Below, one piece after another: positions 15,892 through 38,539 of a stretch of DNA of 38,539 nucleotides; position 1 is the first letter of the stretch, and each line of letters opens with the position of its first letter. Position numbers and translations under genes: made by a program. Source of the DNA: an uncultured Oscillospiraceae bacterium. GTDB taxonomy: Bacteria; Bacillota; Clostridia; Oscillospirales; Oscillospiraceae. The notes below the pieces were generated by a model. The model did no database searches and was not told the origin of the DNA. It worked only from the letters and a program-made list of their open reading frames with translations. The stretch spans positions 1 through 38,539 of the forward strand of contig CALXDU010000012.1 of NCBI GenBank assembly GCA_944387145.1, given 5' to 3'.

Positions 15892-15919
15892 GAAGCCGCC
15901 GGGATCTCCCGGCGGCTTC
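15892..15919 (+). terminator. Perfect GC-rich hairpin after the LtaS-like gene
   Basis: A 13-bp perfect stem (left arm GAAGCCGCCGGGA, 15892-15904) meets its complement at 15907-15919, starting 2 bp after the stop codon. No T-run follows, so it may act as a 3' end stabiliser or a factor-assisted terminator. A nearly identical hairpin lies 230 bp away at 16122-16145. Confidence 0.65.
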
Positions 15920-16001
15920 AGCGTATTAAAAAGCCTCGCAGAGTTTGCTGCGGCAGCAGCAAAGAAAGTCAAAATCGTTTTCTGCCGGGGCGCGTACCTG
16001 G

Positions 16002-16121
16002 CAGAAAACACTTTACAGGCTGCAAGTGTGGAATTTGTCCCCTATTGGGGGGACAAATTATGCGCGCAGCAGACTGCTTTCAGTTGTCGGAAAAGCCCGA
16101 AGGGGTTTTTCGACAGTCTCA
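16002..16121 (-). repeat. Interspersed hairpin repeat, copy A
   Basis: About 120 bp that align by eye at roughly nine bases in ten with the sequence at 38421-38539 on the other strand. It contains two conserved hairpins. One is AATTTGTCCCC with its complement (16032-16042 and 16049-16059). The other is an imperfect hairpin around AAAAGCCC...GGGGTTTTT, closed by GTCG/CGAC (about 16086-16114). The segment GCGCGCAGCAGACTGC between them is identical in copies A and B. In gene sense (minus strand) it begins TTGAGACTGTCG right after the exchanger's 3' hairpin. Further hairpins at 15978-16008 (TTTTCTGCC arms) and 15944-15963 (TTTGCTG arms) may belong to the same element; copy B runs off the window before it can show this. 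Confidence 0.85.
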
Positions 16122-16145
16122 AGCCGCCGGGATTTCCCGGCGGCT
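16122..16145 (-). terminator. Perfect hairpin after the exchanger gene, abutting repeat copy A
   Basis: An 11-bp perfect stem (AGCCGCCGGGA with its complement, 2-nt loop) lies 7 bp beyond the stop codon of the minus-strand exchanger. On the minus strand it is followed only by TTGAGACTG, the repeat's first bases, so the T-run is very short. Its sequence is almost the same as the hairpin at 15892-15919. Confidence 0.6.
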
Positions 16146-28732: not shown

Positions 28733-28762
28733 AAAGCGGCAGCGAATTTTCGCTGCCGCTTT
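28733..28762 (+). terminator. Perfect hairpin after the EamA gene, abutting repeat copy C
   Basis: A perfect 13-bp stem (AAAGCGGCAGCGA with its complement, 4-nt loop) starts 7 bp after the stop codon. The only T residues following it are TTTGA, which begin the repeat. Confidence 0.8.
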
Positions 28763-28803
28763 GAAACTGTGGGAAAACCCCTGCGGGCTTTTCCGACAAA
28801 CTT
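28761..28803 (+). repeat. Interspersed hairpin repeat, truncated copy C
   Basis: About 43 bp beginning TTGAAACTGTGGGAAAAC match the first part of copy B at 38420-38463, with about four differences. Only the GAAAA-CCCC...GGGCTTTTCC hairpin is kept; the GTCCCC hairpin is missing and the eutH stop codon lies 7 bp further on. Confidence 0.75.
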
Positions 28804-28809
28804 TTGCGG

Positions 28810-38394: not shown

Positions 38395-38421
38395 AAAGGC
38401 AGGGGCTTGGCCCCTGCCTTT
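38395..38421 (+). terminator. Perfect hairpin after yhaN, abutting repeat copy B
   Basis: A 12-bp perfect stem (AAAGGCAGGGGC with its complement, 3-nt loop) lies 5 bp after the stop codon. The only following T residues are the TTTGA that begins the repeat. Confidence 0.8.
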
Positions 38422-38539
38422 GAGACTGTCGAAAAACCCCTGCGGGCTTTTCCGACAAACTTTGGCAGTCTGCTGCGCGCATAATTTGTCCCCCGATGGG
38501 GGACAAATTCCACACTTGCAGCCTGAGAAGTGTTTTCTG
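38421..38539 (+). repeat. Interspersed hairpin repeat, copy B (runs off window)
   Basis: Begins TGAGACTGTCGAAAAACC and contains the imperfect GAAAAACCCC...GGGCTTTTCC hairpin, the conserved GCAGTCTGCTGCGCGC stretch and the perfect hairpin AATTTGTCCCCC with GGGGGACAAATT. It matches copy A, reverse-complemented, at roughly nine bases in ten. The last bases (GTTTTCTG) correspond to the edge of a further hairpin in copy A, so the element probably continues past the window. Confidence 0.85.

Follow-up and report, generated by a model that had tools for sequence, protein, structure and literature searches.

A short non-coding repeat of the Oscillospiraceae that duplicates terminator hairpins, probably a MITE moved by IS1182-type transposases

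The window, that is the entire stretch of 38,539 nucleotides analysed here, contains three copies of a repeat that is very probably a non-autonomous, protein-free MITE, mobilised in trans, most likely by a transposase of the IS1182 family, and duplicating a terminator hairpin. The element has defined ends, is dispersed in many genomes and lies 3' of genes, its copies are flanked by hairpin duplications, and orthologous empty sites hold one hairpin only. In the mechanism that we propose, a transposase encoded elsewhere, most likely one of the IS1182 family, would recognise the imperfect inverted ends and attach the element to the stem-loop of an intrinsic terminator at its two outer feet, and repair would then leave one complete hairpin per side. 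Since one hairpin is left on each side, the neighbouring genes would keep a terminator, which suggests how the element can enter terminators with transcription of its neighbours still terminated. Both the identity of the transposase and the cut at the foot of the hairpin are inferences.

Architecture of the element in the window

The repeat unit of about 203 bp comprises four hairpins, an enclosing helix and imperfect terminal inverted repeats (CAGnCTGTCGAAAAA / TTTTTTGACACnCTG). From the left, the inverted end within H1 is followed by P1, which encloses H2, and then by H3, H4, a mini-hairpin and the right end (Table 1). In a preliminary description of the window all three copies had been recognised with their motifs in the correct order, but copy A had been placed at 16002-16121, some 120 bp in place of the actual 203, and the third hairpin, the fourth and the right end had been overlooked. 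Its view of a non-coding repeat family with conserved hairpins holds: the element is short and has no apparent coding capacity, gaps that change the length between copies are not multiples of three, and no gene is needed as an explanation.

Copy A is situated between a gene for a sulfatase-domain protein on one side and one for a sodium/calcium exchanger on the other, and the two hairpins around it have the same stem, their difference being confined to the loop. Copy C is incomplete because the contig ends within the repeat. As contig C105 of the same assembly starts inside an element and carries the same hairpin at its right, copy C and C105 probably join.

Table 1. Parts of the element and adjoining terminator hairpins, in window coordinates.
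Feature	Position	Strand	Basis or remark
Copy A, complete 203-bp element	15918..16120	-	full-length matches and coordinates
H1 hairpin TGTCGAAAAACCCC..GGGCTTTTCCGACA, holds left terminal inverted repeat	16085..16115	-	
P1 helix CAGTCTGC..GCAGCCTG, encloses conserved linkers and H2	16016..16076	-	
H2 hairpin AATTTGTCCCCC..GGGGACAAATT	16032..16059	-	
H3 hairpin TGTTTTCTGCC..GGCAGAAAACG, conserved apical GGTACGCGCC (GGTACACGCC in most copies)	15976..16010	-	
H4 hairpin TTTGCTGC..GCAGCAAA	15944..15963	-	
Right end: CTCTGCGAG mini-hairpin and right terminal inverted repeat	15918..15943	-	
Terminator hairpin AAGCCGCCGGGATCTCCCGGCGGCTT, one of the pair around copy A	15893..15918	.	stem identical to 16121-16145 hairpin
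Second copy of the terminator hairpin of copy A	16121..16145	.	
Terminator hairpin left of copy B	28733..28762	.	
Copy B, 5' fragment of about 45 bp, H1 only	28763..28807	+	
Terminator hairpin left of copy C	38395..38421	.	also present on contig C105, to the right of its element half
Copy C, 118 bp of the left part, truncated at the contig end	38422..38539	+	

The terminator hairpin is the target and is duplicated

We assembled 96 distinct complete copies, nearly all from the host genus, a few of which could derive from named contigs. Eighty of them abut direct repeats that exceed the 99% level of a null distribution obtained by pairing mismatched flanks. These repeats are 18-38 bp long with a median of 28, and 78 of the 80 are stem-loops over most of their length; among random 27-mers drawn from these flanks the share is 4.9%. 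In 38 of the 80 pairs both members are identical, loops included, and the remaining pairs differ mainly in the loop. Outside the genus, the hairpin is duplicated at only 18 of 40 copies. Where both neighbouring genes were called, 52 copies lie between convergent, 35 between tandem and 3 between divergent genes. Note that these gene calls are approximate, having been made by a codon score that agreed with 15 of 17 training genes; simple longest-open-frame calls gave an uninformative strand bias, and codon scoring was used instead.

The flanks of five insertions from two sister species (G003 or G109) were joined and searched in three sister species, yielding seven orthologous empty sites, each with both flanks aligned and with a single hairpin instead of hairpin, element and hairpin. 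The loop differs between empty and filled sites in several cases, and part of the stem in one (L064). From the single hairpin at these seven sites it follows that the hairpin is the target and is duplicated upon insertion, so that target and duplication are one and the same. The flanking hairpins might instead be ordinary convergent terminators that existed beforehand, with the repeat inserted between them and nothing duplicated. The loops of paired hairpins are indeed often unlike, and at the site of copy A both G109 and G003 possess two hairpins separated by a 20-bp spacer and no element, a layout that is perhaps the remnant of a deletion. Against this stand the 38 pairs that are identical down to the loop and the seven empty sites with their single hairpin, which represent five other loci, and we regard pre-existing terminators as already disfavoured and extremely improbable.

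Opposite orientations of the element within one terminator were seen in sister species for L009 (G000:C4) and L054 (G109:C142), and likewise for the copy at window position 38422 with L065 (G003) and L052 (G109:C1). As the elements in opposite orientation (L009/L054 and L052/L065) are only 89-90% identical, independent hits on one target are likely, and for the same reason inversion in place was not preferred. In the flanks of L032 and L065 the stems match and the loops are exact reverse complements of each other (TTTTT/AAAAA and TTG/CAA), as if one hairpin had been flipped.

In certain genera outside the host genus, some copies directly follow a stop codon and have degenerate ends, which, together with the 18 of 40 above, speaks against the mechanism proposed. 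A subtype with the ends TGGCGAAAAA is found in Vescimonas fastidiosa (L354:36848-37045 and 39608-39806), one to two bases past stop codons, and no hairpin duplication was detected at these two copies.

Distribution and the link to IS1182

A 261-base query gave 18 matches in the host genome (G000, a draft of 2.0 Mb in 127 contigs), the best at an E value of 8.6e-134 and sixteen at 4e-8 or better; these are not chance matches. As several of them are halves at contig ends, the draft contains at least 13 elements, halves counted once, and the many matches at contig ends suggest that the repeat interrupted the assembly. The preliminary description had named a scarcity of further copies as an observation that would speak against it, and blastn of the host genome and its relatives returned many additional ones. 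Of 136 genomes of the genus, 42 were found by blastn to carry the element, no more than five candidates being scored in each. The exact 22-base left end was retrieved from only four named contigs, and Candidatus Faecousia accounts for two of these. Of 300 genomes sampled across the family, 172, representing 75 of 106 genera, were matched by the covariance model R1; most of the matches listed are full length, and the weakest genomes depend on matches near E 1e-5. R1 also matches some genomes from four other families of the order. Match counts in two well-assembled genomes were 13 and 20, including a few weak echoes on the opposite strand, and on the 861-kb replicon of Vescimonas fastidiosa 38 places were found by blastn.

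Labelled a plasmid, this 861-kb replicon (NZ_AP023416.1) carries ribosomal protein genes, dnaB and argS and is therefore chromosome-like. A few contigs deposited as viral contain the element as well, namely MT836333.1, three other unannotated fecal phage records and L353 from IMG/VR. The weak model matches in genome G262 (E about 1e-7 to 1e-9) do not have the conserved right-end motif and were not accepted as firm members, although they lie above the counting threshold.

A search of Rfam, both at gathering score and permissively (E up to 1), returned no match to the element, in agreement with the preliminary description, which had known of no named family of this layout. Among the papers searched we found none containing the conserved motifs and, judging by titles and abstracts, no account of the element among those listed for IS1182 and MITEs. 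The element was not found under any name in these searches and seems to be a mobile repeat without a name, very common in a major family of gut bacteria; it probably breaks assemblies too, given the several copies at contig ends of the host draft.

With regard to the transposase, intact IS1182-family ISs of the genus match NF033551 at 386-407 bits, and their ends CAGACTGTCGAAAAAGTCC and CAGACCGTCGAGAAACCCC agree with those of the element at as many as 17 of 19 positions, a level of 13 being reached by 0.04% of random 19-mers. Four of these ISs (L133, L135, L139 and L140) sit between duplicated hairpins of 19 to over 40 bp, and in L162 (G132:C102) a single terminator holds both the repeat and the end of an IS1182 remnant, with one copy of the hairpin between them. 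The ISs of the genus are about 1.5 kb long, contain a transposase gene and have no interior in common with the element that we could see, but the shared ends, the hairpins at the ends and the same duplication of a terminator hairpin point to an IS1182-type transposase acting in trans as the likely mover. The element is not itself an IS1182 IS, as it contains no gene and the host assembly, searched with PF13751 and NF033551, has no IS1182 gene. The host also holds no longer element with the same ends, all matches to the exact terminal-repeat pattern being known copies of the element.

The missing host gene speaks against an IS1182 mover and would suit one from another transposase family with similar ends, as would the family-wide comparison, in which the element does not co-occur with IS1182 beyond expectation among 300 genomes (36/63 vs 136/237, Fisher p = 1), with the caveat that ISs get lost from draft assemblies and that past mobilisation requires no present transposase. 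Such a family nevertheless seems unlikely to us in view of the ends, the hairpins adjoining them and the whole-hairpin duplication that the element and the IS1182 ISs of its genus have in common.

A stem-loop target, reported for some IS1182 members, is found for the element and for the IS1182s of the genus alike. The closest parallel is provided by IS1272/TnSha1 of staphylococci, of the same family, with inverted ends, a stem-loop or terminator target without sequence consensus, insertions downstream of genes and both orientations in one terminator (PMC5678879, PMC4923244). IS1272, however, has a transposase and inserts into terminator hairpins that it deletes or replaces without duplication (PMC4923244, PMC5678879), whereas our element of about 200 bp encodes nothing and the whole stem-loop is duplicated. 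MITEs and hairpin targeting by IS1182 relatives are already known, and duplication of the whole stem-loop is one modelled alternative pathway (PMC5678879). What the empty sites add is sequence evidence that insertion duplicates the terminator hairpin in its entirety, a route drawn only as a possibility in that work (PMC5678879).

Covarying palindromes in the interior

The covariance modelling suggested in the preliminary description was carried out, and the hairpins do covary. Within the genus, 27 pairs show double changes, compared with 10 in shuffles. Between genera double changes occur in 50 of 55 pairs, with 676 cells against 196 and 0 of 500 shuffles reaching this value; note that this comparison leans to structure because the alignment was fitted to the model. 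The linkers GCAGnCTGCnGCGCGCA, CACACTTGCAG and CTCTGCGAGG are conserved.

Such strong covariation and the retention of sequence-specific linkers between genera would both be expected if the repeat were a conserved non-coding RNA, or an element of mRNA 3' ends, that serves a cellular function and is only incidentally mobile, its hairpins being selected as RNA. In tandem gene pairs, moreover, the element is in sense with the upstream gene in 31 cases against 13 (p = 0.01), and some copies stand directly between stop codon and terminator. We nevertheless think a cellular RNA of this kind improbable: the copies are at scattered, unrelated loci and missing from orthologous sites, Rfam has no match, and the base pairs themselves argue otherwise. 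G-U pairs are expected to be tolerated in an RNA helix. In the variable pairs of the element, restricted to columns with at least two Watson-Crick types, G-U accounts for 32 and A-C for 46 of 2704 cells. The corresponding numbers are 48 and 20 of 957 for RNase P RNA from the same bacterial family, a control of one RNA family only with a predicted, not curated, structure. The difference in ratio (Fisher p = 4e-4) is indicative only, as cells are not independent events. G-U is common at just three positions, all in H3, two near the top and one at the base, and otherwise the stems behave as palindromes on both strands. With G-U as rare as A-C, unlike in RNase P RNA, the stems resemble DNA palindromes more than a one-strand RNA, and we read the interior as reflecting selection on, or repair of, DNA hairpins, or the use of both strands as RNA. 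The palindromes are perhaps kept for recognition or folding of the DNA, and hairpins that covary without wobble pairs provide a case in which selection on DNA structure can be tested.

The preliminary description had offered a MITE, a REP-type element and a structured RNA as options. The first is the right one, since the repeat has inverted ends, duplicates its target and is matched by empty sites; of the last, structure is retained and a one-strand RNA is disfavoured, the shortage of G-U pairs favouring DNA palindromes. REPs consist of one short palindrome and are associated with RAYT transposases, and the element resembles REP/BIME repeats in being palindromic, extragenic and 3' of genes, but in the strict sense a REP-type element is rejected because of the two defined ends and the duplicated target. 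With bacterial MITEs the element shares its small size, the absence of coding sequence, inverted ends, target duplication and many copies; it departs from MITEs in general by a long and variable duplication that is itself a hairpin, and by several covarying palindromes kept between genera. A more tentative possibility, to which we give less weight than to the trans-mobilised MITE, is that this multi-palindrome interior is a functional nucleic-acid module in itself, which a dedicated protein would read in the form of folded DNA (or from both strands). The inverted ends would then be only one of several routes of spread, and some genera would keep the interior with ends that have decayed or changed. 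Variation within the interior was seen in the elements L009 and L018, where an insertion of about 44 bp with a hairpin of its own occupies the apical loop of H3.
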